Shown: piece after piece, positions 40,906-61,738 of the stretch
Layout of the letters: every line of letters begins with the position of its first letter
Numbering within the stretch: position 1 is the first letter of the stretch
Notes under the pieces: generated by a model
What the model was told of the DNA's origin: nothing
The model's input: the letters and a program-made list of their open reading frames with translations, nothing else
The model's database searches: none
NCBI GenBank assembly: GCA_016125405.1
Contig: WGLW01000015.1
Location: 1 to 62,813 of the forward strand
DNA length: 62,813 nt
Direction: 5' to 3'
Origin: Alphaproteobacteria bacterium
GTDB taxonomy: Bacteria; Pseudomonadota; Alphaproteobacteria; Caulobacterales; Hyphomonadaceae
Translations under genes and position numbers: made by a program

Positions 40906-43900
40906 CTAGGCTGCGGGCAGCGGCGTCACGTCGATTACGATTACTTTGATGCGGTGGCGGTCAGCTTCAGGCACGAGTGAAGTTAGTGCGACCTGCATCT
41001 CGTCGGCGGTTCCTGGTGCCGCAACTCCGCTTGGCGGGGCAGGAGCGCCCCGGCCCAATGCCCGTCCATGCCAAATGACCAAGTAAACCCCATAGCCTTT
41101 TGCGTCGGGGTCTCGAGTGTAGAGGCGGTCGAGCTGATCCCGGCACGCCGACCAGACTTCTGGATGAGCGTCGCGTTTAATCTCGATAACGACTTTTCCA
41201 GCTTGGTCATGAGCTGCAACGATATCGCATCGACGATCTGCAGCCATATGACCTTCTGGCTCCGCAGAAACGGCGCGTTGTCTGAGAGCCGATCGAAGCA
41301 AATCCAACAGCCGGTCTCGGCAGCTCTCCTCTACCTTTGGAGATGACACTCGGGCTGTACCCGGCGCTTCATTCCAAAAGGCTTTGTAGCTGTCCGTATT
41401 TGAAACCCGAACGACCCGGGCGATTTCTTCGAGATCATCCACCACTAAGGCGTGCAGGTCAGCCACGGTAGCCGGAGCGGACGTAAACAAGCCACGAATT
41501 GTCTCGTCCCAACTAGGCCTCACATACTCCTTCTGCCGTGTCAGCTCGCGCTGATTGCCGGCGAAGTGCATCAGCGTTTCCCGATGGGTTAAGAGCCGAT
41601 CGTCAAGGCAAAGCCGATTGAATGCGGCACCAACATCGCGACCTGCGCGCCCGGAAAGTATGTTGGCAAGGCCCTGCACAAAGTCTGTTGCATCCCAAGG
41701 ATTGGTGTCGCCGATCGATCCATCCTCAGGGTGCTCTGCTCGTGCGAACCCCGCCCCGAACTCTGCAATCAAGAATTCGCTCTGCTCGGTTGTAAGGATG
41801 CTCCAGGCTGAGCGATCCTGCATCCGCCGCCGGGAAGTTTCGGCGCTCAGCGCTCGGATGATCCAAAGGTCGTTCGGTGCGGTGGCATAGTGAATACGCA
41901 GCGCCGCCTCGTAGTGTGTGAAGTCCAACCAGAAGGCGGCGGCGAGCCAATGGGGCCTTTGCTGAGACGTTGTCTCCGTGTCTGCAAGAGCTGAGCGTGT
42001 CAGTGAACGGAGATCACCATGCTTGTGCGAATCCGAGAGTGCAGCTTTCAGCAACTTGGAAAGAGTCTGATCGGACCAGCCCCCGATCATCAGCAGCTCG
42101 ACAGCTACTTCACCGTGAATGTCGCGCGCAGCGTCCATATACAGAAAATCATCCAACCCAACCGGAGTGTGGGGCGACGGACGATCGGGCGTCCTACGGA
42201 TGCACGTCAGCAGCGTTCGCCGCATCAGGTCGGGACGGTCTCGGAACGCTGCAGCAAGCCAGCCGTCTGCATCGCGGTCGTTGAGACCTTCGCGCATCAT
42301 GTAGCCGTAACACCAGACCATAGCACTCGATGCGGCCAAGGCGTCGTCGGACAGTCCGACAAGCAGACGAGTTTCGTCCCAGCGCTCGTCCATTCCGGCG
42401 ACAGCAGCCATCCACCACGTGAAGTATTTGTCGCTCGCCCACTCATCGACAACCGCTTCGGGGGAGGGCCAGCTGGTAGCGTCCGTAAGCGCTATTAGTC
42501 CCCTTCGAACTGCGCCGGCACGATCAGCTCCGAAGGCCTCCTCGACTCGTGGAATGCCAGCGACCTTGCCGAGTGTGCCGTCACTCCGAAAGTAAAAGTA
42601 GCGAGCCAAATGACCTAGCCAGTTCACATGCGTGCCTGCCTCGATGGCGACGACGTGGGCGTCAAAGTCCGCGACGTTGCGTTCGTGCTGATCACGCTCC
42701 TTTTGGAGTTGGCGCTCTCGACGCTCTTGTTGTTCTTCACGCCAGGCTTCGATTTCCCAGTAACAGGCCCGTCGCCGAACTTCTTGCAAGGGCGATGACT
42801 TGGCCATGTCGTAGAGCTGGTCAAAATACTCCGTTCCGAATGAGGAACGCAGGGCGAAGCCGTAGAGAGCGCTTTGGCGCTCGCTCGTGAGAGTCCCCTC
42901 CACAATTAGAGCAATCGCTTCTTGCAGGAAAAACGTGGTCGTGAAGGCTTTTGCCGTGGCGTGAGTGAAATGGCTCCAGAACCCCGCAAGGCGGTCGGGA
43001 TCGGCCTCATTGAGCGCGATGCGGAATAGCTGTCGGGGCCGGTGCGCTGGCGTCCTAAGCTGATCCCGAAAGCCGTCGTCGGACTCCTCGGCAAAATAGT
43101 GGTCGCGGAAGCTGGCCATGAACTGGAGCCAGCACCAGAGCCTATCCGGAGCTACCTCGCCATCGCGGCTAAGGACGCTCTCAATCCACTCGATAAGTGC
43201 CGACCGCACTTCTCCATGTGACATGTCCCTGGCAGGGGGGCGGGTCAGGTTAGAGTCGCAGAGTTGATCCAGCGCTTCTGCCGAAATTCTGGGCGCAAGG
43301 TTTTTCAATTCCCAAAGCAAGCCAACCGTGTTGTCCGATTCGCGGTTGAGGAAGTCCCGAATGATCTCGGCAACGTCACCTGCATCAAATTCGGCGGGGA
43401 ACAGTTCTTGCGCAGCATGAACCCTAAGACGCACAGTGGCGGAGCGGCCTCGCGCAGAAGCGCGAAGAAATGCGATTGCTTGGGCACGTGTTTCTTGTCC
43501 AGCACGCAGCGCCGCAGCCAACGCCGCTTCGGCTGCTGCGTACCCTTCGTCAGGTCGCGCCATCACCGCGCAGAGTTCGGGACCAAATCCGGGCTGTGGC
43601 GGTCCGAAGCGGAGCGCATCCAAGACAGTCATCAACAGGTCGTAGGGCACGTCTGGATCTACGAGGGCCGCTCGGAACTCGCTGGCCAAGTCGATGTCGG
43701 ATAAAACCGCGAGTTTCGGGTTTGGCCAGTCTCCACGACGAAAGCCGGGGTGGGCTCGCGAAAGCCGCGCGAGTTCTGCGAACAGCACGCGCTTGTTCGA
43801 AGGCGTAAGGCACTCCGGTGTCCCATGCGTGACAACCCCATATGGATCGGCTGCGAGAAACACCTGTGCGTGATCTGGAAGAGTGGCGGGGAGCCAGCCG

Positions 43901-44910
43901 AAAAGCCCGCGCAGCTCCTCAGCCGGCGAACCCTCCGACGAAATTAGCGCGAGCACGCGTCTCAACGACAACCCTTGCCGAACCTGCGCCGCGAGCCATT
44001 CAGCGGCTAGGAACTCGGCAACTGTACGATGGGGCGGTGACACCCCTCTCTGAGGATCAGCTTCAAAGAGCATGCGCGAGACGCTCGCGAAAAGCAGGTC
44101 CTCGTCCACCGGAAGCGCGCGCAGTGGCGGAGTGTTTTCGTCTGGGGTTGCGCCGGGCAGGCTGAGCCGAGCCGTGTCTGAAACCAACAGGGTCGCCGAT
44201 AGCGCGCCAGCAACCGAGCGCAGCTCGGAAGCGACATACTGCCCATCGACGTGCAGTTGATGACGCGGGTTTACTTCCGTCAGCATGTCCCGAGCGGCGG
44301 CGTCGAACAATTCGCGGCGGTTGCTTGGCCAATCGCCGTATTGGACTTGGCGGGCGAGCATCGTCAGAGTTTGAGGGCTTTCAAGAAGGCGCTGAACACC
44401 CCGTTCTAGAGCGCGGTAAACAAACGCGTCCGCATCGGAGACGCCCAGCTCCTGGAGAAGAGTCTTGGTCTCATCCAATGACAGCGGCTCCAATCGCACG
44501 ACGGCGTATTCGCCAATGTTCTCGAACAGCGGCCCGAAGTCGGTCTCGTCGGCAACTCCAAGCCAGTTGATAGTTCTGCAGGAGATGCGGAGTTTCGGCG
44601 GCTCGGCTGACACCAGCCGTTGAATAAGTGTTTCAGTAGTCTCCTCGGGCGCTGTGCGCGGCCGTTTTTCGTCTAGCGCATCTACGTAGAGCGCGCGTCC
44701 AGCTGAATTTCGTGCACCGTAGACGGAGAACGCCTTGGCAGTCAGAAGCACGCCTTGCTCAAGTTCGTGAAGCGTCGAAAAGCATGTGCTCTTGCCCGAG
44801 CCGGGGTCGCCCAGAAGCACAAGCGCCGGGTACTGCAGAGCGTCTGCGATAAGAGCGACTTGGCCCTCTCTGCTCGCGGGGCGGATGTAGCGGATGCGGC
44901 GTGAGATCAT
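40906..44910 (-). CDS. STAND-like P-loop NTPase with C-terminal PD-(D/E)XK-type domain
   Basis: A 1334-residue protein. Walker A GDPGSGKST is at 34-42, Walker B ALYVDALDE at 73-81, and a sensor-like RISCRTINWL at 108-117. This resembles NACHT/STAND NTPases whose LDALDE replaces the usual hhhhDE. Residues from about 350 to 1150 are a helical, repeat-like array, a likely sensor. The last 110 residues hold CDIVAAHD (Asp1229), VVIEIKR (Glu1243, Lys1245) and RDQLDRLY, matching the D...ExK...Q pattern of restriction-like nucleases. It overlaps the 185-residue gene by 4 bp. Base composition is visibly lower in GC than the core genes. A phage-defence role is inferred. Confidence 0.75.
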   Translation of the reverse strand: MISRRIRYIRPASREGQVALIADALQYPALVLLGDPGSGKSTCFSTLHELEQGVLLTAKAFSVYGARNSAGRALYVDALDEKRPRTAPEETTETLIQRLVSAEPPKLRISCRTINWLGVADETDFGPLFENIGEYAVVRLEPLSLDETKTLLQELGVSDADAFVYRALERGVQRLLESPQTLTMLARQVQYGDWPSNRRELFDAAARDMLTEVNPRHQLHVDGQYVASELRSVAGALSATLLVSDTARLSLPGATPDENTPPLRALPVDEDLLFASVSRMLFEADPQRGVSPPHRTVAEFLAAEWLAAQVRQGLSLRRVLALISSEGSPAEELRGLFGWLPATLPDHAQVFLAADPYGVVTHGTPECLTPSNKRVLFAELARLSRAHPGFRRGDWPNPKLAVLSDIDLASEFRAALVDPDVPYDLLMTVLDALRFGPPQPGFGPELCAVMARPDEGYAAAEAALAAALRAGQETRAQAIAFLRASARGRSATVRLRVHAAQELFPAEFDAGDVAEIIRDFLNRESDNTVGLLWELKNLAPRISAEALDQLCDSNLTRPPARDMSHGEVRSALIEWIESVLSRDGEVAPDRLWCWLQFMASFRDHYFAEESDDGFRDQLRTPAHRPRQLFRIALNEADPDRLAGFWSHFTHATAKAFTTTFFLQEAIALIVEGTLTSERQSALYGFALRSSFGTEYFDQLYDMAKSSPLQEVRRRACYWEIEAWREEQQERRERQLQKERDQHERNVADFDAHVVAIEAGTHVNWLGHLARYFYFRSDGTLGKVAGIPRVEEAFGADRAGAVRRGLIALTDATSWPSPEAVVDEWASDKYFTWWMAAVAGMDERWDETRLLVGLSDDALAASSAMVWCYGYMMREGLNDRDADGWLAAAFRDRPDLMRRTLLTCIRRTPDRPSPHTPVGLDDFLYMDAARDIHGEVAVELLMIGGWSDQTLSKLLKAALSDSHKHGDLRSLTRSALADTETTSQQRPHWLAAAFWLDFTHYEAALRIHYATAPNDLWIIRALSAETSRRRMQDRSAWSILTTEQSEFLIAEFGAGFARAEHPEDGSIGDTNPWDATDFVQGLANILSGRAGRDVGAAFNRLCLDDRLLTHRETLMHFAGNQRELTRQKEYVRPSWDETIRGLFTSAPATVADLHALVVDDLEEIARVVRVSNTDSYKAFWNEAPGTARVSSPKVEESCRDRLLDLLRSALRQRAVSAEPEGHMAADRRCDIVAAHDQAGKVVIEIKRDAHPEVWSACRDQLDRLYTRDPDAKGYGVYLVIWHGRALGRGAPAPPSGVAAPGTADEMQVALTSLVPEADRHRIKVIVIDVTPLPAA

Positions 44911-46069: not shown

Positions 46070-47272
46070 TTATCTGCCTTCAAACCGAAACGGCAGCACG
46101 TCGCCTGCCTTGGTCTGCGGCAGTCGCGCTACTTCGGATCGGGGTATGAGTTTGACGATCCCTCCTTGCTTTTCATCGAACCAGCCAAGTGGAAGGCCGG
46201 CGAGGCTTTCAGCATCACGAGCAGAAATCGTCAGATCGGAATTGAGCAGATCGATTTTGGTCCGCAGTTGAGCGTCTACAACGGCGTTGAAGCCCTCCGC
46301 CAAAGCGCGAGGGCGGGGCACTGGCCATACATCATCAAAAGGCTCACCTCTGCTCCAGCCTCGCGCACTGTATGACTTATATAACGCGCGAGCGGATTCT
46401 GGATCCAGAATATTTAGATCGCTCAGCCGTTTGATCTGCGCTTTGATTGAGACCTTCCAGCGGTCTTTCAACGCTTCAAACTCCGCCAAGCTATGGAAGC
46501 GAGTTTCATTCGGATAAGTTGTCCCCGGTAGGAGGAATGCGCTTCCCAGCCTGAACGCCTGCTGTTCAATGAGCTCAAAGTTTTCGGCGAAGTCGATCGC
46601 CGACACTCCGCGGTGCAACACGGCGTGAGCCATCTCATGTGCAGAGTCCATCTGCCTACGGGAGAACGACATCTTGTCGTCCGCAAGCAGCACATAAGGA
46701 CGCTGCTCTTCATCGCGCCAACGGCATAGCCCATCGAGACGAGAAGTCCCCATTTCTTCGGAGGCAACCACGAAACCGCTGCGCTCCATGAATGCGACAA
46801 CATCCACGCATGGACCTTGGCCCAACCCCCAGTGCTCGCGGAGTTGAAGCGCGATCCGCTCCAAATCCTCGTTCCTTAGCTGTTTGAAGGAGGTGCGGCC
46901 CATAGCGTCCGGAATATCCACGCTCGGCAGTTCGATGTATTCCTGCAAGGCCGTGGACAAATCGAACAGCCACGACATGCGTGCACGTTGAAGAGCCTTT
47001 TCGCGCTTCAGCGTGGAGGCTAGCGATCGGAAGAAAACCGGGCGATCAGATTGGAGAAGCGGTCGAAGGAAATGCTCGGGCCGAACATTCAAAGCTTCCG
47101 CGAGCGAGCGCAGAGCGTCTGGCTCCGGCGTTGCGCTTCCATCTTCCCAGCGTTGAACCGTGCTCGCGCTTTTACCAACGCGCCGAGCCAGCGCTTCACG
47201 CGTTACGTAGCCTTGAGCTTCGCGGGCCAAGACCAGCCTGCCGGGAACAAACCCTGGGGTGCCGTTGCGCAT
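46070..47272 (-). CDS. XRE-type HTH / ImmA-IrrE metallopeptidase protein
   Basis: A 400-residue protein. Residues 20-70 are an XRE helix-turn-helix (LARRVGKSASTVQRWEDG). The middle is a COG2856/ImmA-IrrE zinc peptidase with SAHEMAHAVLH (HExxH) and a downstream Glu in ELIEQQAFRLGSAFLLP. Family members such as ImmA cleave repressors to induce mobile elements, or act as antitoxins. It is downstream of an unknown gene on the same strand, 81 bp apart. Confidence 0.85.
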   Translation of the reverse strand: MRNGTPGFVPGRLVLAREAQGYVTREALARRVGKSASTVQRWEDGSATPEPDALRSLAEALNVRPEHFLRPLLQSDRPVFFRSLASTLKREKALQRARMSWLFDLSTALQEYIELPSVDIPDAMGRTSFKQLRNEDLERIALQLREHWGLGQGPCVDVVAFMERSGFVVASEEMGTSRLDGLCRWRDEEQRPYVLLADDKMSFSRRQMDSAHEMAHAVLHRGVSAIDFAENFELIEQQAFRLGSAFLLPGTTYPNETRFHSLAEFEALKDRWKVSIKAQIKRLSDLNILDPESARALYKSYSARGWSRGEPFDDVWPVPRPRALAEGFNAVVDAQLRTKIDLLNSDLTISARDAESLAGLPLGWFDEKQGGIVKLIPRSEVARLPQTKAGDVLPFRFEGR

Positions 47273-48139: not shown

Positions 48140-48429
48140 TTCAGCGAACGAAGTTAGATCGTCGCTCTCGATTACCGAAATCCACTTTCCGGCCTCCACG
48201 CGAATGGTCGGCGGAATGCCGAGACTGCGGTCGACGACGCGGTTGGTGATGATGCTGGCGCTTCGCTGGACGCCTTCGTTGATCGCGGATTCGACGGAGT
48301 CGCGGATGGCGCCGATGCCGACATAGGTGAGCTGCGGGTCTTCGGTGGGGCGAGGCCGATGTTGATCAGTGTTCCTAGGGCCGCTGCGCCGAATACCTCT
48401 CTCGCACCAAGCTGCACGAGCTGACTCAT
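48140..48429 (-). pseudogene. TrbI/VirB10-like C-terminal fragment, frameshifted
   Basis: Two minus-strand frames joined by one missing base in a C run (48347-48350) give AALGTLINIGLAP, then VGIGAIRDSVESAINEGVQR and SLGIPPTIRVEAGKW. This looks like the end of a conjugation-channel VirB10/TrbI protein. The 5' part is lost exactly at the left end of the recombinase element. The frame then runs into the downstream gene. I am moderately sure of the family. Confidence 0.4.
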
Positions 48430-48533
48430 AATGCCGAGCGCCGGATTATGCCGCGCGGCGGCGCCAGCGCCTTGAGAACGCTGGCCCCAGCCGCGCGGCG
48501 CTCGGCATAATCAGAGCGCTTCGAGGAAGGCGA
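48427..48533 (+). repeat. left terminal inverted repeat of the RIT-mer element
   Basis: It matches 55163-55270 in inverted orientation with high identity. It contains the motif CGGCATAAT (or its complement) three times and an inner hairpin GCCAGCG/CGCTGGC. Its inner end overlaps the last codons of the third recombinase gene. Confidence 0.85.
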
Positions 48534-49506
48534 GGAGCTGATCATCCGGCCGGTATCGGCCCGGCGGCTGTTCAGGCGCGGCGATGCGGGCGAGCGCGGT
48601 CTCCTTCATCTTGAGGTCGGCGTGCAGATAGATCTGGGTCGTCTCCACCGACTCGTGTCCTAGCCACAGCGCGATCACGGATTGATCGACGCCATGTCTC
48701 AGCAGTTCCATGGCGGTGCTGTGCCGCAGGACGTGCGGGCTCACTTTTCGGCCAGCAAGCGATGGGCGCGACCGCGCGGCGGTTTCGCCGTGACGGCGAA
48801 CCAGGCGTTCGAGAGCATCCCGGCTGAGGTGATCACCACGCAGCGTCGGGAACAGCGGTTCTTCTTCTCTCACGTTCCGTTCCCTGATCCAGGCTTCCAG
48901 CAGCCTGGCGGTTTCTCGCCGCAGCGGCGTGCATCTCTCTTTGCGGCCCTTTCCCTCGCACCGGATATGGGCGCCGGCGCCCAGCACGACATCGCGTCGG
49001 CGCAACCCGATCAACTCGGACGCCCGAAGACCAGCCTGCAGGGCGACCAGCAGGACCAGGTGATCCCGCCGGCCCACCCAAGTCGTCCGGTCGGGCGCGG
49101 CAAGGAATGCTTCCATCTCCTCGCTATCGAGGAAGGTCACCGCCTGCTTCACATGGCGCTTGCTGGGCATCGTCAGAATGCGCTGGCAGTGAAGGAGATA
49201 AGCAGGTTCGTTCATCGCCACGAACCGGAAGAAGGAACGGATCGCCGCCAGCCGCGTGTTGCGGCTGCGGGCGCCGTTCTGTCGTTCCGTCTCGATGTGG
49301 ACCAGGAAGTCAGTGACGAGGTCCGCGTCGATGTCTTCTACCGCCAAGCGCGTCGGCGGCCTGCCCAGGCGCCTTTCGGCGTACCGGAGCAGCAGGCGGA
49401 AGGTGTCGCGATAGCCCGCGACCGTGTTGGGGCTGGCGTTCATCTGGATCGCAAGCCGTTCGGTGAAGAAGCGCTGCAGCAGCGCCGGGAACGTCGAGGC
49501 GGTCAT
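48511..49506 (-). CDS. tyrosine recombinase, third of the trio
   Basis: A 331-residue phage-integrase-family recombinase. The N-terminal SAM-like domain is within residues 1-110. Catalytic residues are Arg in LQAGLRASELIGL, Lys in CEGKGRKERC, HVLRHST (HxxR), the GHESVETTQIY His and the nucleophile Tyr. The last residues LLAFLEAL are encoded inside the left inverted repeat. It starts within the second recombinase stop (4-bp overlap). It presumably acts as a complex with the other two. Confidence 0.92.
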   Translation of the reverse strand: MTASTFPALLQRFFTERLAIQMNASPNTVAGYRDTFRLLLRYAERRLGRPPTRLAVEDIDADLVTDFLVHIETERQNGARSRNTRLAAIRSFFRFVAMNEPAYLLHCQRILTMPSKRHVKQAVTFLDSEEMEAFLAAPDRTTWVGRRDHLVLLVALQAGLRASELIGLRRRDVVLGAGAHIRCEGKGRKERCTPLRRETARLLEAWIRERNVREEEPLFPTLRGDHLSRDALERLVRRHGETAARSRPSLAGRKVSPHVLRHSTAMELLRHGVDQSVIALWLGHESVETTQIYLHADLKMKETALARIAAPEQPPGRYRPDDQLLAFLEAL

Positions 49507-50444
49507 GAACGCGCCTCCTCGGCATGTTCGACCCGTGCGGCGGCCAGCTCCAGAAGCTCGGGGACCGCCTCGATGTACCAGTAGGTGTTCTCCGGTCGGG
49601 AGTGGCCAAGATAGGTCGTGAGCTTGATCATCTCCTGCCCGGCATCTTTGCCGGAGCGATACCAGCCGATCAGCGTGCGGGCGGCGAAGGTATGCCGCAG
49701 ATCATGGATGCGCGGCCCACGCCCGTGTCGGAGATAGCGCTGCGCTGGGCGCATGCCGATCTGCTGGCAGATGCGGGCGAAGGTGTACCTGGCGGCGCAG
49801 TCACCGGTACGCACGCCATGCTCATTGACGAACAAGGCCGCTGGCGAAGAACCCAACAGCCTGTCGCGCTCGGCGATGTACGCCCGCAAACGCGCCGTGA
49901 CGCTGTCAGAGAGCGGGACAAGGCGCGCCTTGCCAAGCTTGCCGCGCTGGATGACCAGAACGCCAGTCTCAAGCTCTGCGTCGGTGGTATCGAGCGCCAA
50001 CGCTTCGCTGATGCGCAGGCCCGTGACGGCGATCAGGCCGAAGAGTGTTGTGTAGGTCAGGCCGCGTAGCCCGTACGCTGAAGGCAGGTCCGCCGCGGCG
50101 AGGAGGATGCTGGCTATCTCAGCCTCGCTGTAAATGTACGGCCGCGAGCGCCGGGTCCGTTGCGGGATCAGCCCGGCCGGCGGCGGCTCATGCGCCGGGT
50201 CGAGCCCATGTAGCCACTGGGCGAACAACCGGACTATCCCTAAGCGGGCCGCCCATGTCTGGCGCCCGGCGACACCGAAGCTCGCCTGCCAGCGGAGGAA
50301 GAGACCGGGCGTGATGTGGCTGGCGTTCTGGGTTTCGGCGAAGGCGATGAAGCGGCGGAGCACACGAGCGGAGGTGTCGAGATCGTAGCCGAGGCTACGC
50401 CTGACGGCGAGGTAGCGATCGAGTTCCTGGCGAAGCGGGCTCAT
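49503..50444 (-). CDS. tyrosine recombinase, second of the trio
   Basis: A 313-residue recombinase with an N-terminal core-binding domain and catalytic residues Arg (VTGLRISEAL), Lys (QRGKLGKARL), HDLRHTF, GHSRPENTYWY. An insertion GWYRSGKDAGQEMIKL lies between HxxR and the GH motif, typical of the middle RIT protein. It overlaps both neighbours by 4 bp, implying strict co-translation. Confidence 0.92.
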   Translation of the reverse strand: MSPLRQELDRYLAVRRSLGYDLDTSARVLRRFIAFAETQNASHITPGLFLRWQASFGVAGRQTWAARLGIVRLFAQWLHGLDPAHEPPPAGLIPQRTRRSRPYIYSEAEIASILLAAADLPSAYGLRGLTYTTLFGLIAVTGLRISEALALDTTDAELETGVLVIQRGKLGKARLVPLSDSVTARLRAYIAERDRLLGSSPAALFVNEHGVRTGDCAARYTFARICQQIGMRPAQRYLRHGRGPRIHDLRHTFAARTLIGWYRSGKDAGQEMIKLTTYLGHSRPENTYWYIEAVPELLELAAARVEHAEEARS

Positions 50445-51364
50445 TGCGCGCCTCCCACTGCCGGCCAGGGCTGGGCGATGGAGCGAAGGCTTTCGACATC
50501 GAGTCTGGCATAGATCAGGGTGGAGGCGCGCGAGCGGTGGCGGAGCATGTTGCCCACCTCCTCCAGTGAGGCGCCGTCCCGAACCAGCCGCGTCGCCAGG
50601 CTGTGCCGCAAGACGTGCGATCCGACATAGGGAACAGGCGGCTTGACACCCGCCCGCGCAAAGGCCTCGCGAAGAACCGCATTGAGCACCTGACTGTCCT
50701 TGAATGGCCGGTGCGGCGCCCGCTCGGTGACGAACAGGTGGCGCGAGTCGGAGACGCGATCCCGAAGGTAAGCGGCAATCGCCTCGCCAACATCAGGCGG
50801 GATGGGAACGCGGTCGTGGCTCTTGCCCTTGCCGCGCACCAACAGCTCGCCGGCGCGCCAGTCGATATCCTCCAGACGGATGGCGATCACCTCGTGCGCC
50901 CGCAAGCCCAGCCGGGCGAGCAGAAGCGCCATGGCGTAGTTGCGAGCGCCGGACCGGTTGTCGGCGCGCACTTCTTTTAGAACGGCCTCCACCTGTTCGG
51001 GACTGAGATGGCGCGGCAGCCGGGCGTTGTACCGATGGGCGATGCTCGGGATCGATAGCGCCAGGTTGGTCTTCGTCAGGCCGCACCGGAAGAGATATCT
51101 GAAGAAGTTGCGCAGATGCGTCGGCGGGGTCTTGTCGCGGTACGGCGCCTTGCTGGCTGTCAGTTTCTGGAGGAAGAGGACAATGTCAGTGGGGGTGATC
51201 GCGGCGAGATCGACGTCGCTTTGACCGAAGCGGAAGTCTAGGAACCGGTCGGCGAAGCGCCAGCAGTGGCCGATGGTGCGTTCGCTCAGGCCGCGTTGGC
51301 GGCGGAGATGGTCTTCGTAGTCATGGCGCAGGCTCGCGCGCAGGCTTGCAGTCTGGTCGGCCAT
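50441..51364 (-). CDS. tyrosine recombinase, first of the trio
   Basis: A 307-residue recombinase with catalytic residues Arg (LGLRAHEVIAI), Lys (VRGKGKSHDR), HVLRHSL, LRHRSRASTLIY. The frame is open upstream, but the ATG at 51364 with GGAGC eight bases before it is chosen because MADQTASLRASLRHDYEDHL begins the core-binding domain. The 51365-51582 gap upstream holds a perfect palindrome ATGGACCA-AGAC-TGGTCCAT (51500-51519), perhaps an operator. Confidence 0.92.
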   Translation of the reverse strand: MADQTASLRASLRHDYEDHLRRQRGLSERTIGHCWRFADRFLDFRFGQSDVDLAAITPTDIVLFLQKLTASKAPYRDKTPPTHLRNFFRYLFRCGLTKTNLALSIPSIAHRYNARLPRHLSPEQVEAVLKEVRADNRSGARNYAMALLLARLGLRAHEVIAIRLEDIDWRAGELLVRGKGKSHDRVPIPPDVGEAIAAYLRDRVSDSRHLFVTERAPHRPFKDSQVLNAVLREAFARAGVKPPVPYVGSHVLRHSLATRLVRDGASLEEVGNMLRHRSRASTLIYARLDVESLRSIAQPWPAVGGAQ

Positions 51365-51582
51365 GTTGTTGCTCCTTCTAGGGTGAAGGAGCGACGTCTG
51401 GTCTAGGTTCGAAGCGTTGTCGCCGCAAACGGCGCACTTACAGTATCGCTCCCTCCAAAAAAGGCAGGCCGTTCTAAGCTGGTATCTGGCGGCATGGAGA
51501 TGGACCAAGACTGGTCCATGATGGCTAAGTCGGTCGTCGTTGCGCGCCATAGCCAGAGATCGGGTCCAGCCGGAACGAGCAT

Positions 51583-51975
51583 TCAGTCGTGAAAGCGGTT
51601 TGCGCGGTAGCGTCCCTGGATCCACTCGGGAACAAAGGTTAGCCCAGCCAGCGCAAGCGCAGCCCAGACGATGTCGCCGATATAGCGCGGCTCGATCGGT
51701 ACGGCGCCCGTCGCGACGAGCAGCACGGCGAACGCAGCGACGAGGAAGACGGGCCCCGAATAGAAACAGTGCCGGCGCCCACATCGCGCGGCGTTGGCGA
51801 GGCAGGCGACGCCCATCCATGCAAGCGCGACTATAGTGAGGCCCGCATCGGCGAGGAGCGGAGTGTCGCCGCGAAAGAGCGAAAGGGCGAGAAGAAGAGC
51901 GAGCGGTGCGCCCCAGGCCGCCAAGAACGACATTGGCTTGGCCAGAAAATCCTTCGCTTTCGAACGGTCGCCCAT
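51583..51975 (-). CDS. small membrane protein of the mer operon
   Basis: A 130-residue protein with four hydrophobic segments. Between the second and third is NAARCGRRHCFYSGP, two Cys in a CxxxxC arrangement that could bind Hg(II). It follows merA by 4 bp, so it is probably the last gene of the operon. I recall similar CGRxHC proteins of unknown function near mercury genes. A GTG at 51990 overlapping merA is the alternative start. Transport or sensing of mercury is inferred. Confidence 0.65.
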   Translation of the reverse strand: MGDRSKAKDFLAKPMSFLAAWGAPLALLLALSLFRGDTPLLADAGLTIVALAWMGVACLANAARCGRRHCFYSGPVFLVAAFAVLLVATGAVPIEPRYIGDIVWAALALAGLTFVPEWIQGRYRANRFHD

Positions 51976-51979
51976 CGCG

Positions 51980-53398
51980 TCAACCCGCACAGCAAGAGAG
52001 CTTGGCCACGTCCTTCTCGAAGCCTTGCGCGGCGAGCTTCAGGCCTTCGACCGTGGTGAGGTAGGGGAAGATCGTATCGCCCAGAGCCTTCGCCGTCATT
52101 CCGTGCCTGAGCGCAAGTGTGAGCGTCTGGATAGTCTCAGCCCCTTCCGGGGCAATCACCTGGCCACCGAGCAGCCGATCCGTTCGCGAATCTGCAATGA
52201 GCTTGATAAGCCCGCGCGTGTCGCGCGCGGCAAGCGCGCGCGGAACCTGGTCAAGCTGCACAACAGAGATCTTGACGGCATGGCCCGCGTCTTTGGCCTG
52301 CGCTTCACTCAAGCCTACGCCCGCGACTTGCGGATCGGTGAACACGACCCAAGGCATCGAGGAGTTGTCGTACCGATCATCGCCGCCCATGGCATTGCGG
52401 GCGGCGAGCTTGGCGCCGTAAGCGGCCATGTAGACGAACTGGTCGCGGTTCGTGACGTCGCCCGCAGCGTAAACGCCGTCGCGCGAGGTTCGCATACGCT
52501 CATTGACGACGATGGCGCCTCGCGCGTCTTGAGCGACGCCGGATTCAGTGAGGCCGAGCCGCTCGACATTGGGCGTCCGGCCCGTTGTGAGCAATATTTT
52601 CTCGGCTTGAATCTCGATGCGTTCGCCGTTCTCGGTCACGCATAGTGTCACGCCGCCCTTGTCCTCACGGCAGGCGTCGTAAGCAATGCCGCAGAAGAGG
52701 CGAACGCCTTCGGCCGCAAACGCCTGCATCAGGGCAGCCGAAACCTCGATCTCGGCCTGCGGCAGTAGCCGCGAGCGGCAGACCAGCGTTACTTCAACAC
52801 CCATGCGCGCCATCATCTGCGCAAGCTCGGCGCCGATGAAACCCCCGCCGACGACAATCAGACTCTTCGGGAGCCTATCGAGATCGAGCAGCGAGGTGCT
52901 GGTGAGATAACTCACCTTGTCGATGCCGGGAATCGCAGGAATGGCGGGCCGCGTGCCGGTCGCGATGATGATCTTGGGCGCCTGGATGAAGCGGTCGCCG
53001 ACCTGCACACCACTATCGGCTAGGCGCGCCGCGCCTTCGACGTACTCAATCGTCGGATATTGGGGCAGCAGCTCGGCGTACTTCTTCTTGCGCAAGTCGG
53101 CGACGAGTTCGTCCTTTTCGGCGATAAGCGCACGCCAATCCGTCACGCGCGCCTGGCCGGAGAGCCCATGAAACCGGCCGGCGGCTCGCGCGGCGTAGAG
53201 GGCTTCAGCGGCCCGGATCATGGTCTTGGACGGCACGCAGCCGACATTGACGCACGTGCCGCCGATAACCCCATGACCAATGAGAACCACGCTTGCGCCT
53301 TGCTCTGCGGCGGTGATGGCGGCGGAGAATCCGGCTGACCCTGCGCCAATGACGGCGAGATCGTAAGCGCGCTTCTTCGGCGTGCAGCAATCGGGCAT
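51980..53398 (-). CDS. merA: mercury(II) reductase
   Basis: A 472-residue FAD/NAD(P)H disulfide oxidoreductase that reduces Hg(II) to Hg(0) in the cytosol. The redox pair is GGTCVNVGCVPSK (Cys49, Cys54), FAD motif AVIGAGSAGFSAA, NADPH motif IVVGGGFIGAELAQ and YAAGDVT. The C-terminal Cys pair 469-470 delivers Hg. The N-terminal MerP-like domain (NmerA) is missing; instead the first residues are MPDCC. It starts one base after the merF stop. Confidence 0.95.
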   Translation of the reverse strand: MPDCCTPKKRAYDLAVIGAGSAGFSAAITAAEQGASVVLIGHGVIGGTCVNVGCVPSKTMIRAAEALYAARAAGRFHGLSGQARVTDWRALIAEKDELVADLRKKKYAELLPQYPTIEYVEGAARLADSGVQVGDRFIQAPKIIIATGTRPAIPAIPGIDKVSYLTSTSLLDLDRLPKSLIVVGGGFIGAELAQMMARMGVEVTLVCRSRLLPQAEIEVSAALMQAFAAEGVRLFCGIAYDACREDKGGVTLCVTENGERIEIQAEKILLTTGRTPNVERLGLTESGVAQDARGAIVVNERMRTSRDGVYAAGDVTNRDQFVYMAAYGAKLAARNAMGGDDRYDNSSMPWVVFTDPQVAGVGLSEAQAKDAGHAVKISVVQLDQVPRALAARDTRGLIKLIADSRTDRLLGGQVIAPEGAETIQTLTLALRHGMTAKALGDTIFPYLTTVEGLKLAAQGFEKDVAKLSCCAG

Positions 53399-53632
53399 TT
53401 AAGCACTCTTTTTCGAAGAAGGTTCAGGAGCCCGTCCGCTTCGCGGTCGCCACCAAGCCCAGATAAGGAGCGCCGCCAGGACGGCGACGCCCCCGATCAG
53501 CGGAGCCCCCGCGCGTCCCAACAGCGCCCAAAGGCCTGCGGCGCCGAGGGACAGCAAATTTAGCGGCGTGAGCAGGCAGCACAAAGTGGCGGTGAGAATG
53601 CCGACGGAAAAGATCGGCCAGTCTTTCATCAC
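53399..53632 (-). CDS. merF: MerF-like mercury transport protein
   Basis: A 77-residue protein with two membrane helices. The first holds the vicinal Cys pair in TATLCCLLTPLNLL, as in MerF. The second cytosolic Cys pair of typical MerF is absent: the C-terminus is a basic, Ser/Pro-rich tail. The start overlaps the merP stop by 4 bp, and merA starts at the next base after its stop. It would move Hg(II) across the inner membrane. Confidence 0.75.
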   Translation of the reverse strand: MMKDWPIFSVGILTATLCCLLTPLNLLSLGAAGLWALLGRAGAPLIGGVAVLAALLIWAWWRPRSGRAPEPSSKKSA

Positions 53633-53967
53633 GAACCGCTAGTGACGGCTCGCGCCGGATAGCCTGCATTTGCGGACGCAGCTGCGATTTGCTCGGGCGT
53701 GGCGCGCGCCGGATCAAAGGTCACGGTGGCGCGCTTGGTGGCGAAATCCACTTCGACGCTACGCACGCCCGCGACGCGCGACATGGCGGTGCGCACAGTG
53801 ATTGGGCAGGTGGCGCAGGTCATTTTATCGACGACGAACACCGTCGTGCGCATCTTGGCGGGCGCTTGGGCGCCGGTCTGCGCGGCCGATGGTAACGGCA
53901 CGAGCGCTGCAAGGCCGCCAAGACCGAGAGCGGCGGTGATCACCGCTGCGACGAGAGTTTTTTTCAT
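53629..53967 (-). CDS. merP: periplasmic mercury-binding protein MerP
   Basis: A 112-residue exported protein. Signal peptide MKKTLVAAVITAALGLGGLA is followed by a heavy-metal-associated domain with VDKMTCATCPITV (the two Hg-binding Cys), VRSVEVDFATKRATVTFD and ATPEQIAAASANAGYPA. It binds Hg(II) in the periplasm and passes it to MerT/MerF. It lies 13 bp after merT. Confidence 0.93.
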   Translation of the reverse strand: MKKTLVAAVITAALGLGGLAALVPLPSAAQTGAQAPAKMRTTVFVVDKMTCATCPITVRTAMSRVAGVRSVEVDFATKRATVTFDPARATPEQIAAASANAGYPARAVTSGS

Positions 53968-53980
53968 AGGAGTTCCTCCT

Positions 53981-54370
53981 TCAATAGAAAAACTTGGCCC
54001 ACCAATCGATTGTGGCCGAAACCACGACTAGCGCCGCTGCGATCCAGAGCGCGAGTTGGGTGATGAGCGAGGATTCCGGGCGGGCGCAGTATGAGCCGTC
54101 CTCGCACGCGGGTTTCGCCCGGAAATAGACGTGCCAGAAGCCTACGCCGATGAAGACCGCCGCCACCAAAAGGAACACCGGCTTGAACGGCTCAAGCAGC
54201 GTGAGCTGGCCGATCCAGGCGCCGGAGGCGCCGAGCGTCACCAGCGCCAAAGGCAGGACGCAGCAAGACGAGGCGAGCACCGCGCCCACGACCCCGCCGA
54301 CAGCGAGCCAGCGCCGCGGGCCGCTGCCGGGGACTGACTTTAGCTTTGGATTTTGCTCTGTATCGATCAT
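53981..54370 (-). CDS. merT: mercuric transport protein MerT
   Basis: A 129-residue inner-membrane protein with three helices. The first helix has the Cys pair in VLASSCCVLPLALVTLG, and the loop CEDGSYCARP gives the second Cys set. It imports Hg(II) from MerP. An upstream ATG at 54379 would lie in the -10 box of the inferred promoter, so 54370 is preferred, which would make the mRNA nearly leaderless. Confidence 0.9.
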   Translation of the reverse strand: MIDTEQNPKLKSVPGSGPRRWLAVGGVVGAVLASSCCVLPLALVTLGASGAWIGQLTLLEPFKPVFLLVAAVFIGVGFWHVYFRAKPACEDGSYCARPESSLITQLALWIAAALVVVSATIDWWAKFFY

Positions 54371-54377
54371 GCGCTTC

Positions 54378-54408
54378 ATGCTACAAGCTGTAGTAACTAC
54401 AGGATCAA
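54378..54408 (-). promoter_or_regulatory. mer promoter with MerR operator
   Basis: On the minus strand, TTGATC (54408-54403) and TAGCAT (54383-54378) are separated by 19 bp, the long spacer typical of MerR-controlled promoters. Between them sits the palindrome CTGTAGTTACTACAG (54402-54388), placed for MerR binding and DNA twisting. It lies between the divergent merT and merR. Confidence 0.75.
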
Positions 54409-54423
54409 GAGAAATCTGCAGTG

Positions 54424-54891
54424 ATGACGTCTGGCTTGAATCAAGGCGATTTACGGCGCGGGGAACTCGCGCGTGAGGCTGACTGCAACCTCGAAACCAT
54501 CCGCTATTACGAGACCATCGGCCTTATTCCGCATCCGCCGCGCAGCGAGGGCCGCCACCGTCTTTACGGGCGTGCGCACATCAATCGGCTGCGCTTCATC
54601 TTGCGTGGGCGCGAACTTGGTTTCTCAATTGATGAAATCCGCGCTTTGCTCGCGATCGAGGACAGCGGCGGGGCATGCTCAGATGTTTATGCGCTGACGA
54701 CGCAGCACCTGGTGCAGGTGAAGCGCAAGATTGCCGATCTGCGGCGGCTCGAACGTATACTTGCGTCCACGGCGGCAGCGTGCGCGCGCGATGCTTCGCC
54801 GGAATGTCCGATTATCGAGGCGCTGTCGGCTCGGATGGGCACGCAGAAGCCCACGATGCCACGACGGCGAGGCGCTCGATCGCGTCAATGA
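54424..54891 (+). CDS. merR: mercury-responsive regulator MerR
   Basis: A 155-residue MerR-family activator/repressor. The winged helix has CNLETIRYYETIGLIPHPPR and GRHRLYGRAHINRLRFI. The effector part has Cys in GGACSDVY and in AAACARDASPEC, the three Hg-binding Cys; the last two are one residue closer than in Tn501 MerR. It is divergent from merT and should control it and itself. A GTG at 54421 is an alternative start. Confidence 0.9.
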   Translation: MTSGLNQGDLRRGELAREADCNLETIRYYETIGLIPHPPRSEGRHRLYGRAHINRLRFILRGRELGFSIDEIRALLAIEDSGGACSDVYALTTQHLVQVKRKIADLRRLERILASTAAACARDASPECPIIEALSARMGTQKPTMPRRRGARSRQ

Positions 54892-55162
54892 CGCGCGAGT
54901 GGTATCGGCTCCGGGCGTTGGGCGCGATACCGATTGCGCGAGCAGCGCCAGCCCAAGTCCAGATGGGCCTATTACTTCGCTCACCTCGGGCATCTGCGTA
55001 GCTTCGTTGCCAACGCCATGTCATTGCTAACTCCGAGACGCGAACATTGTCTTTGCTCGGCTTGGGTTGATTGACCCTGTTCGGCGTAAAATTGCCGAAC
55101 CTGGCAGTGCTAGCGAGTGACTGACTTGGAGAATGTCGGTCGTCTCACTGGAATCCGTGACT
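54892..55162. other. segment between merR and the right inverted repeat
   Basis: No supported gene. A hairpin GTTCGGC-GTAAAATT-GCCGAAC (55079-55100) without a T tract is visible. Confidence 0.35.
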
Positions 55163-55270
55163 TCGCCTTCCTCGAAGCGCTCTGATTATGCCGACCTGGC
55201 GCGCGGTTGACGTCAGCGTTGTCAACGCGCTGGCCTAGTCGCGCGGCATAATCCGCCGCTCGGCATTATG
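55163..55270 (-). repeat. right terminal inverted repeat of the RIT-mer element
   Basis: An inverted copy of 48427-48533. It includes a copy of the end of the third recombinase gene (CGCCTTCCTCGAAGCGCTCT) with no gene in front. Another palindrome, TTATGCCGA-CA-TCGGCATAA, follows directly at 55275-55294. Confidence 0.85.
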
Positions 55271-55333
55271 GGTCTTATGCCGACATCGGCATAATGGCCA
55301 CTGGACAGGACACGCCTCCCGGTTGAACCGTGA

Positions 55334-55609
55334 TTCTCAGGTCGGCGTGGCGGCGACGCTTACACCCGCGAGGAGCTGGTCGCCGAACTTGGCTCGGCCT
55401 TCATCTGCGCCGAGCTGGGGATCATGCCGACTGTTCGTCACGCCGATTACATCGGTGCCTGGCTTGAGGTGCTCAAGACTGACAATCGGGCGATCTTCCA
55501 AGCCGCGTCGCTGGCGTCAAAGGCCGCCAATTTTGTTATGGGCCGACCCGAGGCGCACGGAAGCCAGTCTGACGCGTGTAAGACCTCAACCCATCAAGCT
55601 GGGGCTTAA
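55334..55609 (+). pseudogene. ArdC-like antirestriction protein remnant (C-terminal part)
   Basis: One frame reads YTREELVAELGSAFICAELG, then HADYIGAWLEVLKTDNRAIF and FQAASLASKAANFVMG. This is the C-terminal zincin-like region of ArdC/DUF1738 proteins carried by conjugative elements. An in-frame stop at 55331 and the absence of the N-terminal ssDNA-binding part show it is truncated. It begins right after the recombinase element. Confidence 0.7.
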
Positions 55610-59796: not shown

Positions 59797-61320
59797 TCAG
59801 GTGTTGACGCTGTTTCCGGTTTTCCACGCCCACGGCAGGAGCTCATCGAGCCGGTTCGCCGGGCGGCCGGCAACCATGCGCATGAGCACGTCCTTGAGCC
59901 AGGCGTAGGGCTCGACGTCGTTGAGTTTCGCCGTCTCGACCAGCGATCCGATAATCGCCCAGCGCTCGCCGCCGCCGTCGCTGCCGGCGAACAGGTGGTT
60001 CTTTCTGCCGAGAGCCACCGGCCGGATCGCCCGCTCGACCGGGTTGGTGTCGAGTTCGACGCAGCCATCGTCGAGGAACCGCGTCAGGCCCTCCCAGCGG
60101 GCGAGGGCATACCGCATGGCCTCGGCGAGCTTGCCGCGAACCGGCAGGCGCAGCAGCTCTGCTTTCAGCCAGACATGCAGCGCATCCACGATCGGCTTCG
60201 ACCGCGCGCGGCGCGCCGCCAGGCGATGGGCCGGAGACTGGCCGCGCGCCAGGTCTTCCACCGCATAAAGCGCTGCAATGCGGCGTAGCGCTTCAAGCGC
60301 CAGGGGCGCCGCCTCGGCTTCGGCAAGCTCGTAGAACTTGCGACGCGTGTGGGCCCAGCAGGCGGCGAGCGCGATCCTTCCACCGGCGGCCAACCGCTCG
60401 AACCCGGCATAACCATCGACCTGAAGCACGCCCCTGAACCGACCCAGGTGCGCTTCCGGCCGCTCCGCTTTCCGGTCCGGCGCATAGATGAAGACCGCCG
60501 CTGGCGGCTCTGGTCCGCTCCAGCCGCGCTGCTCGCGTGCATAGGCCCAGAGACGACCCGTCTTGGTCCGTCCGCGTCCTGGATCGAGCACTGGAACCGG
60601 CGTGTCGTCGGCGAACAGGATGTCGGAGGCGAACACATGCTCGCTCAACCGGCGATGCAGGGCTTCGAGCCACCAGGCGGCGCCGCCGACCCAGCCGGCC
60701 AGCGTCGAGCGCGACAGCTCGACGCCATGGCGGGCGAAGATCTTCGACTGCCGGTAGAGCGGGGTGTGGTCGCAGTATTTGGCGACCAGCACCTGGGCGA
60801 TGAGGCCCGGAGTCGCCAGGCCGCCGGCGATCAGTCGCTCGGGGGCCGGCGCCTGCAGGATATGATTGCACGCGCGGCAGGCGTATTTCGGGCGCGAGAT
60901 GCGCAACACCTTCAGCTGTGCAGGGACCCAGTCCAGCATCTCGCTGACGCTTTCCCCGATGCTGTGGACCTCGCCGCCGCAGCCAGGACACGCCCCGCTG
61001 CCGACATCGAGCACGAGGGTTTCGCGGGGCAGGTGGTCTGGCAGCGCCTTGCGCGAAGGCGGCGAAGGCGGATCGGCCTTGGCGACCGGACCGCTTTCCT
61101 CGATGCGCGCGATGTCGGCGTCGAGGTCTTCCAGGGCTAACAGCAGCTGGTCGGGATCGAGCTGCTCCGAGCGCTTGCCGAACTGCATGCGCTGCAACTG
61201 CTTGATCAGCGCCTGCAGGTCGATCTCACCGTCGCGATGAGCGACGGCTCCCGCCATGTCGCGCACCAGGCGCTGCAGGAGCGCCACATCGGACGGCAGA
61301 TTGTCCAGATCGAGCCGCAT
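59797..61320 (-). CDS. tnpC: IS66 transposase TnpC
   Basis: A 507-residue DDE transposase. The N-terminal helices (LIKQLQRMQFGKRSEQLDPD) and the zinc-finger-like CPGCGGEVHSIGE precede the catalytic core. DDTPVPVLDPG carries Asp, LQVDGYAGFERL the second Asp, and NPVERAIRPVALGRKNHLFA the Glu. The ATG at 61320 (MRLDLDNLPSDVALLQRLVR) is preferred over the longer open frame. It is intact. Confidence 0.93.
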   Translation of the reverse strand: MRLDLDNLPSDVALLQRLVRDMAGAVAHRDGEIDLQALIKQLQRMQFGKRSEQLDPDQLLLALEDLDADIARIEESGPVAKADPPSPPSRKALPDHLPRETLVLDVGSGACPGCGGEVHSIGESVSEMLDWVPAQLKVLRISRPKYACRACNHILQAPAPERLIAGGLATPGLIAQVLVAKYCDHTPLYRQSKIFARHGVELSRSTLAGWVGGAAWWLEALHRRLSEHVFASDILFADDTPVPVLDPGRGRTKTGRLWAYAREQRGWSGPEPPAAVFIYAPDRKAERPEAHLGRFRGVLQVDGYAGFERLAAGGRIALAACWAHTRRKFYELAEAEAAPLALEALRRIAALYAVEDLARGQSPAHRLAARRARSKPIVDALHVWLKAELLRLPVRGKLAEAMRYALARWEGLTRFLDDGCVELDTNPVERAIRPVALGRKNHLFAGSDGGGERWAIIGSLVETAKLNDVEPYAWLKDVLMRMVAGRPANRLDELLPWAWKTGNSVNT

Positions 61321-61384
61321 GCCTGATTCTGTCCGCGTTCGTCGCGACCGCCAAGAGAGATGCAACGAACGGCGAGTATTTTCT

Positions 61385-61738
61385 TCAGGCGGCGCGTGTC
61401 GGTGTCCAGCGGCGCTCAGGCGATCGCCAGTCGATGCCCTCAAGCAGGAGCGCCAGCTGGCCCGAGGAGAGCGCTACCGCGTCCCCGGCTTCACCCATCA
61501 TCGGCCAGGCGAACACGCCGACGTCGAGACGCTTGGTGAACAGGCAAAGCCCGGTTCCATCCCAGAACAGGATCTTGATGATGTTCGCCTTGCGGCCGCG
61601 GAAGCAGAACAGGTGTCCGCAGAACGGATCGAGCTTCAGGACCTCCTGAACCAGCGCGGAGAGACCTTCCATGCCCTTGCGCATGTCGGTGTGGCCGAAG
61701 GCCAGGTGCACTTTGACGCCGGCCGGCGCGATCATCAT
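61385..61738 (-). CDS. tnpB: IS66 accessory protein TnpB
   Basis: A 117-residue IS66 Orf2 protein. HTDMRKGMEGLSALVQEVLK, GHLFCFRGRKANIIKILFWD and GTGLCLFTKRLDVGVFAWP are diagnostic. It is required for transposition with TnpA and TnpC, but its biochemical role is unclear. The start overlaps the tnpA stop by 4 bp. Confidence 0.93.
   Translation of the reverse strand: MMIAPAGVKVHLAFGHTDMRKGMEGLSALVQEVLKLDPFCGHLFCFRGRKANIIKILFWDGTGLCLFTKRLDVGVFAWPMMGEAGDAVALSSGQLALLLEGIDWRSPERRWTPTRAA

Follow-up and report, generated by a model that had tools for sequence, protein, structure and literature searches.

The question raised by this locus is whether a recombinase-in-trio (RIT) element and a mercury-resistance (mer) operon, found together in the 62,813-nt contig WGLW01000015.1 (GCA_016125405.1; Alphaproteobacteria bacterium, Hyphomonadaceae; hereafter the window), form a single mobile unit and, if so, how this unit came to its present place. 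An earlier note, made from the sequence alone, had proposed that a RIT element carrying mer lies at 48427-55270. Our preferred explanation, to which we assign a probability of about 0.8, is that a mer-carrying RIT transposon was integrated site-specifically into a truncated ardC gene via a circular form with two recombination cores.

RIT elements have been found on plasmids and islands of alpha- and betaproteobacteria and are described as three overlapping tyrosine recombinases of three families with an inverted repeat and a palindromic sequence at the ends (PMC3414803, PMC2864759, PMC10214605). They measure about 3.5 kb (PMC3414803) and have repeats of 28-34 bp (34 bp in PMC10214605); insertions were reported in radC and IS66 tnpA, with mobility and target choice left untested (PMC3414803, PMC10214605). 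Statements on cited papers refer throughout to the available parts of their text.

The mer operon and the recombinase trio share one pair of ends

The three tyrosine recombinase genes (ritA, ritB, and ritC) lie on the minus strand with 4-bp overlaps, and PF00589 matches all three products. Identity to annotated trios was 69-72% for RitC (without locus L016), 59-66% for RitB, and 56-62% for RitA; the assignment to the three families rests on these alignments and a tree, in place of curated profiles, and pieces of 250 aa or less were excluded from the RitC tree. The catalytic R, HxLRH, and Y regions are retained according to motifs and alignment. A longer, 459-aa ritA frame (50441-51820) was rejected because the homologues in genomes G008 and G010 start at the equivalent of 51364. 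The mer operon (51583-54891) is transcribed toward the trio on the same strand, except for merR. Both gene sets are enclosed by inverted-repeat arms (48423-48533 and 55163-55274) that are 87% identical, a similarity that is not due to chance because its E value is 4.9e-30. The innermost 32 bp of the arms are 100% identical and extend 23 bases into ritC, and the 34-bp RIT repeat motif falls within these 112-bp repeats.

The ends were defined using an empty site (L139) in the relative G007: when the two flanks of the element were aligned separately, the left one matched this site as far as base 1501 (72% identity) and the right one began to match at base 1500 (73%). Measured against this site, the element occupies 48424-55295, so that the span given in the earlier note contains a real element with bounds displaced by a few bases and without a 20-bp palindrome at 55275-55294. 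From its left to its right 6-bp junction tag (s1 and s3, see below) the element is 6,878 bp long, which exceeds the ~3.5 kb of a cargo-free RIT. The sequence TTATGCCG occurs at both outer ends and at two far sites only, and neither a core nor a palindrome is found between ritA and mer. G007 even shares the fusion of ardC to a trbI-like segment, an older event, so that ardC had been truncated before the element arrived. We rejected the reading of the left flank as intact ardC, since ardC accounts for seven codons only and the remainder matches the trbI-like segment. This segment (48166-48399), which we take to be related to trbI, was found in several copies in related genomes, fused to truncated ardC.

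Together, the sequence indicates that the window holds a complete mer-carrying RIT transposon. The three overlapping recombinases and the long inverted repeats around the mer operon were as the earlier note had described them, and its proposal of a resistance-carrying transposon is upheld by the insertion junctions, where ardC halves that are contiguous in L139 stand at both ends, and by sister elements with different cargo. A plasmid DNA search with the whole element returned 0 of 168 records covering 80% of it, a plasmid DNA search with the left flank returned no match, and no second copy was found in the source genome.

The element interrupts ardC at a fixed site

Relatives were collected from plasmids (23 stretches, 20 of them from a list of 60 entries and five picked owing to an ArdC annotated alongside), from genome contigs in one scan (the best 80 of a longer list), and from related genomes. 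Among the 106 loci with RitC thus compiled, both ends were recognized by motif in 48, and 35 of the 48 had canonical ends, defined by a palindrome core of ATAT, ACAT, or ATGT with at most one mismatch.

At 32 of the 35 canonical-end loci, ardC was interrupted at the exact break, always between HExx and H of the HExxH motif, and both ardC halves were seen in 28. When the plasmid loci, some of which had been picked for their ArdC annotation, were removed, 12 of the 15 genome-scan loci were still in ardC. Flank hits at E <= 1e-3, taken with no filter for arrangement, were in the expected arrangement in 61 of 61 cases and otherwise in none. A search with the palindrome only, which is independent of the rit genes, had matches in 7 of the 398 genomes covered from the order and in 2 of the 385 from the class (the source genome being included in both sets), with 0 for the reversed control; by eye, 8 of the 9 sites continued into an ardC-like frame, or 5 of 6 without the window and two G008 sites. 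These results indicate that the element is site-specific for ardC HExx/H (the slash marks the break). This fixed target is the most surprising property of the element and was absent from the earlier note. Since the protease activity of ArdC was dispensable for conjugation in one test (PMC7213743), interruption of the protease motif in this anti-restriction gene, which serves plasmid entry, may cost the plasmid little.

Two sites stand apart from these insertions: in G761 (L119), a palindrome with a core lies outside ardC, and in G006 (L018, 1979-2105), a solo RIT end lies within ardC, with a single repeat left, the GHWTGH codons lost, and a short shared sequence at the break.

Junction tags and orientations fit a proposed two-core circle

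The 5' junction was ardC-CAYGARnn-[NNNNCA]-TAATGCCG-interior and the 3' junction was interior-CGGCATTA-[TGNNNN]-TTATGCCGATATCGGCATAA-[NNNNCA]-Y-ardC, where the bracketed 6-bp tags are s1, s2, and s3 from left to right. All 26 ardC 3' junctions carried the palindrome (with one base altered in two of them) and none of the 30 5' junctions did, and the interior was found in the two orientations at a ratio of 16:16 among the 32 ardC loci. Plain reversed insertion does not explain the two orientations and was rejected, as it would shift the palindrome to the other side.

The Acidiphilium plasmids pACMV1 and pACRY01 carry insertions in the same ardC locus, with flanks that are 96.8% and 93.9% identical and a 3347-bp interior that is 100% identical and inverted. 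The palindrome is reverse-complemented between them (GACATC, GATGTC). Their tags differ as well, one form having s1 GGGGCA, s2 GGGGCA, and s3 CGGCCA and the other s1 GGGGCA, s2 CGGCCA, and s3 GGGGCA. Such differences would be exactly predicted by a two-core circle if either core can integrate. In two groups of loci that share an ardC (L024/L048/L127 and L023/L120/L128), s1 was constant and s3 variable. In the reading frame of ardC, one of the residues G, T, A, S, V, I, and C is encoded by s1 at all 31 loci, by s2 at 29, and by s3 at 28, while other frames give 8-19 of 31 (counted without L128, a duplicate of L029); because small residues prevail in this frame, the carried tags look like codons of earlier ardC sites.

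On this basis, we propose that RitA, RitB, and RitC join two short cores (CGGCATWA-N6-TWATGCCG) to ardC CAYGARnn-NNNNCA-Y, with a 6-bp crossover region that would end in the second His codon of HExxH; the site at which each recombinase acts is likewise part of this proposal. The putative circle would consist of the interior (rit genes and cargo with the inverted-repeat ends) and the 20-bp palindrome, linked by two near-identical cores, either of which may recombine with ardC. Because either core could be used, the interior would be found in either orientation, with the 5' part of ardC always next to the interior and its 3' part next to the palindrome. The target's own 6 bp would stay on the left as s1, those of the used core would go to the right as s3, and the unused core would retain the tag of an older site as s2. 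Cargo would sit, exchangeably, between ritA and the distal end. The tag rule agrees with that reported for the elements known as SEs, in which the donor 6 bp are placed at the right junction (PMC9345347).

Table 1. Features of the mer-carrying RIT element and its junctions in the window
Feature	Position	Strand	Basis or remark
Truncated ardC, final codons (R-T-K-L-H-E-L)	48403..48422	+	Sequence; same junction with trbI-like minus-strand segment in empty site L139
Junction tag s1, 6 bp, GACTCA	48423..48428	+	Covers HExx/H codons
Left terminal inverted repeat, ritC-proximal	48429..48533	+	
ritC, 331 aa, tyrosine recombinase	48511..49506	-	Profile match and alignment
ritB, 313 aa, tyrosine recombinase	49503..50444	-	Profile match and alignment
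ritA, 307 aa, tyrosine recombinase	50441..51364	-	Homologue starts, profile match and alignment
Membrane open reading frame, 135 aa, 3' of merA	51583..51990	-	Similar frame in L069, L071; no family match
merA, mercury(II) reductase	51980..53398	-	TIGR02053, over its cut-off
merF-like small membrane protein, weak	53399..53632	-	NF033565, 20.5 bits (cut-off 50)
merP-like periplasmic protein, HMA domain	53629..53967	-	PF00403; TIGR02052 under cut-off
merT transporter	53981..54379	-	PF02411
merR-family regulator, divergent	54421..54891	+	PF09278/PF13411; TIGR02051 under cut-off
Right terminal inverted repeat, copy of ritC-proximal end	55163..55268	-	
Inner tag s2, 6 bp, GACCCA on minus strand	55269..55274	-	
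Palindrome P, 20 bp, TTATGCCGACATCGGCATAA, part of right end	55275..55294		
Junction tag s3, 6 bp, TGGCCA	55295..55300	+	
ardC 3' part (GHWTGH onward)	55296..55543	+	PF18818 on 55334-55543; frame change before 55334

Alternative explanations

A cargo-free RIT could have landed near a mer operon, with the outer repeat (55163-55274) being a scrap of an unrelated RIT; cargo-free relatives of ~3.4 kb are common, and solo ends in ardC occur, as in L018. This chance neighbourhood was rejected as extremely improbable, since the two halves of ardC, contiguous in L139, are found at the outer ends, no core or palindrome separates ritA from mer, L016 holds other cargo between the same ends, and L071 has mer at the same position. 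The orientations might instead reflect a single insertion of fixed orientation followed by flipping in place, with the recombinases acting on the core at the left junction and on the inner one, as in an invertible promoter or DNA invertron. Such flipping would account for the 16:16 ratio, for a 100% identical interior inverted within the same ardC, and for s1=s2 in 11 of 32 loci, which is expected if these two cores swap tags. It would, however, leave the palindrome and s2/s3 unchanged, whereas both are altered in the Acidiphilium pair, and an extra inversion of the 20-bp segment would be needed; we thus consider it improbable.

Two further explanations concern the state and the origin of the mer-carrying copy. 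It may be a fossil whose ends and genes are intact by sequence and whose shortened RitA does not work: RitA in the window, L005, and L016 begins at the residue equivalent to 105 of its relatives, and two core-binding (CB) domains have been described for typical RitA (PMC8138268). Against this, three elements of the lineage carry different cargo in different places with open rit frames, and several distant RITs also match RitA only from about residue 105, which makes a fossil unlikely, if somewhat less so than flipping in place. The mer genes may also have been trapped with a full RIT on one side and, on the other, the ritC-side end of another RIT, which is now the distal end. This composite origin would explain cargo gain and is compatible with site-specific integration of a two-core circle. 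Where the arms are at least 60 bp long, the distal arm copies the ritC-side end, which in the window includes the 23 bases of ritC, and such arms were present in 10 of the 17 ardC loci that bear cargo and in 2 of the remaining 15 (Fisher p 0.012). Conversely, 7 of the 17 cargo-bearing loci have short repeats only, and gene conversion between the ends would yield the same repeats. The long repeats therefore point either to cargo caught between the ends of RITs or to gene conversion, and we regard the composite origin as a tentative proposal, somewhat short of an even chance.

Several observations weigh against site-specific integration via a two-core circle as proposed here. A motif-bearing pair of ends was lacking in 58 of the 106 RitC loci, many of which are short contigs or distant RITs, and the end-pair motif also failed in five plasmid loci (L020, L121, L122, L125, and L126); the motif search itself requires a CA closing each tag, so that a CA at this place carries no weight by itself. 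Canonical ends were found outside ardC in L060 and L073, and L044 and L039 have ardC on one side only. In the window, ardC had been truncated before the insertion, and its 3' part is frame-changed. The inverted pair L024/L048 (99.97% identity over 3344 bp), which has s1 alone in common, neither supports nor excludes the tag rule, and the excess of s1=s2 loci over the 1.5 expected comes from shuffles that ignore relatedness and include L128, the duplicate of L029. Movement, past or present, is deduced from sequence comparison; no circle, movement, or recombinase activity was observed. The activity of the window's copy is uncertain, as it lacks the N-terminal RitA domain present in most relatives.

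Cargo and its probable exchange

In 17 of the 32 ardC loci, at least 1 kb separates RitA from the element end on its side. Copies with the same ends and other cargo, which the earlier note had considered a check of its proposal, were found: L016 (G008), whose trio is 91% identical to that of the window, has the same ends and carries a YCII-sized open reading frame (ORF), TetR, and GST, and L005 (G010), with a trio 92% identical, carries a PepSY_TM gene on a contig that stops before the far end. Homology among the window, L005, and L016 ends just upstream of ritA (window 51436). Further cargo consisted of chromate resistance (L019), arsenic genes with NhaA and MFS (L044, with ardC at the left flank only), an alkene reductase-TetR-glycosylase set (L025, L026, and L030, the rit genes being damaged in L026 and L030), a DMT transporter with XRE (L027), and a carbon-nitrogen hydrolase (L129); the remaining cargo loci have unnamed or transposase-like contents. 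Cargo ORFs of L035 (two), L036, L039, and L021 (one each) had no Pfam match.

The earlier note had held that cargo-free relatives with ends just outside the recombinases, together with a lack of mer inside the same repeats in any other genome, would speak against it. Cargo-free relatives with ends just beyond the trio are indeed common, and most have inverted repeats of 30-37 bp, making the long repeats stressed in the earlier note a real feature of secondary importance. By contrast, mer was found within ends of the same kind elsewhere: L071 has mer directly upstream of ritABC with both ends and ardC seen, and L069 has the same gene order on a contig that is the element itself. Both have merR, merT, merP, and merA and the membrane ORF upstream of ritABC, with a MerF-like match in L071 only. 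The MerA proteins of the window, L069, and L071 share 76-87% identity with one another, and the best plasmid MerA among the matches listed reached 69.3%. The identity of RitC between the window and L069/L071 is only 60%, and in the RIT tree the split between the two lineages is fully supported. The simplest reading of these sequences, for which the MerA tree comprised nine rows, is that a mer module is common to, and moves between, RIT lineages.

The membrane ORF after merA was seen in all three RIT-borne mer operons (window 51583-51990, L069 2949-3290, and L071 4228-4653), with no family matched; it is ~44% similar to an ORF close to the second merR of the source genome (G000:C16).

Targets beyond ardC

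Outside the ardC set, 16 loci had both ends. Eleven of these (L060, L063, L065, L073, L074, L075, L077, L089, L096, L098, and L107) interrupt a frame continuing as RH[ST]..., the HxLR/H box of tyrosine recombinases, with a matching upstream half in 10 of the 11; some of the targets are apparently rit genes. Ten of the RH[ST] loci were tested, of which seven match PF00589, the match beginning at profile position 133 or 134, and three RitB-like ones match nothing. L057 and L064 read as ardC, and three loci were unclear. In IMG/VR, the palindrome was found in 12 contigs, 8 of which continue as H[ST]xRG; in 5 of these 8, both ends lie in a gene reading WQx/H[ST]VRG. These five (L143, L144, L149, L151, and L152) are RITs with a RitC ~54% like that of the window that split this small gene, presumably encoding DUF3489.

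RITs may thus home to conserved His codons in general. In its widest form, the proposal is that RITs form a class of homing transposons in which every lineage is directed at conserved His codons of a catalytic site or motif (ardC HExx/H, tyrosine recombinase HxLR/H, and the WQx/H[ST]VRG gene). They would travel as a circle in which the palindrome is the spacer between two cores, with the 6-bp tags of their last sites as a travel record, and in the ardC lineages they would be interchangeable vehicles for metal resistance, one mer module being shared by two lineages that are deeply separate; we consider this extension evenly balanced between true and false.

Relation to known mobile elements

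The element resembles published RITs in its overlapping trio, inverted repeats, and palindromic end sequence. It differs from them in its 6.9-kb length with mer, compared with ~3.5 kb and no cargo mentioned in the available text, and adds a fixed ardC target, a separate 20-bp palindrome, and long repeats. Because its RitA lacks the first ~100 residues, and with them the two-CB-domain architecture, we class it as a RIT variant.

SEs share tyrosine recombinases, fixed targets, resistance cargo, and the donor 6 bp at the right junction (PMC9345347, PMC10214605). They carry intA-tfp-intB-srap, a set that is absent from the window as judged by gene content between the ends alone, and a palindrome or two orientations at the junctions are not reported in the available parts of the same papers. 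The Tn554 family and GInts likewise combine several recombinases, site-specific insertion, and cargo, with mercury genes among GInt cargo (PMC5385486). They use TnpA/B/C or GinA-D sets and have other genes and targets: by gene content between the ends, without direct comparison of Gin proteins, the ginABCD set is not in the window, and three recombinases stand in place of the two plus TnpC of Tn554 (TnpC itself was not searched for).

The mer transposons of the Tn21/Tn501 and Tn5053 types carry mer within terminal inverted repeats and use DDE transposases; no DDE transposase family was detected among the proteins scanned between the ends of the window's element. Inteins and self-splicing introns also insert at codons of conserved protein active sites, whereas RITs interrupt the gene with no splicing.

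Literature searches on RIT together with ardC returned nothing on an ardC target, mer cargo, or a two-core circle; the RIT papers of 2009, 2013, and 2017 were outside their scope. RITs are already known, and we found no earlier report of resistance cargo, ardC homing, or a two-core circle in the literature covered. The junctions supply a target, a 6-bp crossover, a circle model, and an empty site, so that RIT movement becomes directly testable. If the proposal is correct, RITs would be an additional class of carriers by which resistance to mercury, chromate, and arsenic is borne on plasmids of alphaproteobacteria.

Near the element, the window also encodes, as named by eye from the sequence, a large ATPase-like ORF (40906-44910), an ORF with helix-turn-helix and peptidase-like parts (46070-47272), and an IS66-like transposase (59797-61443).

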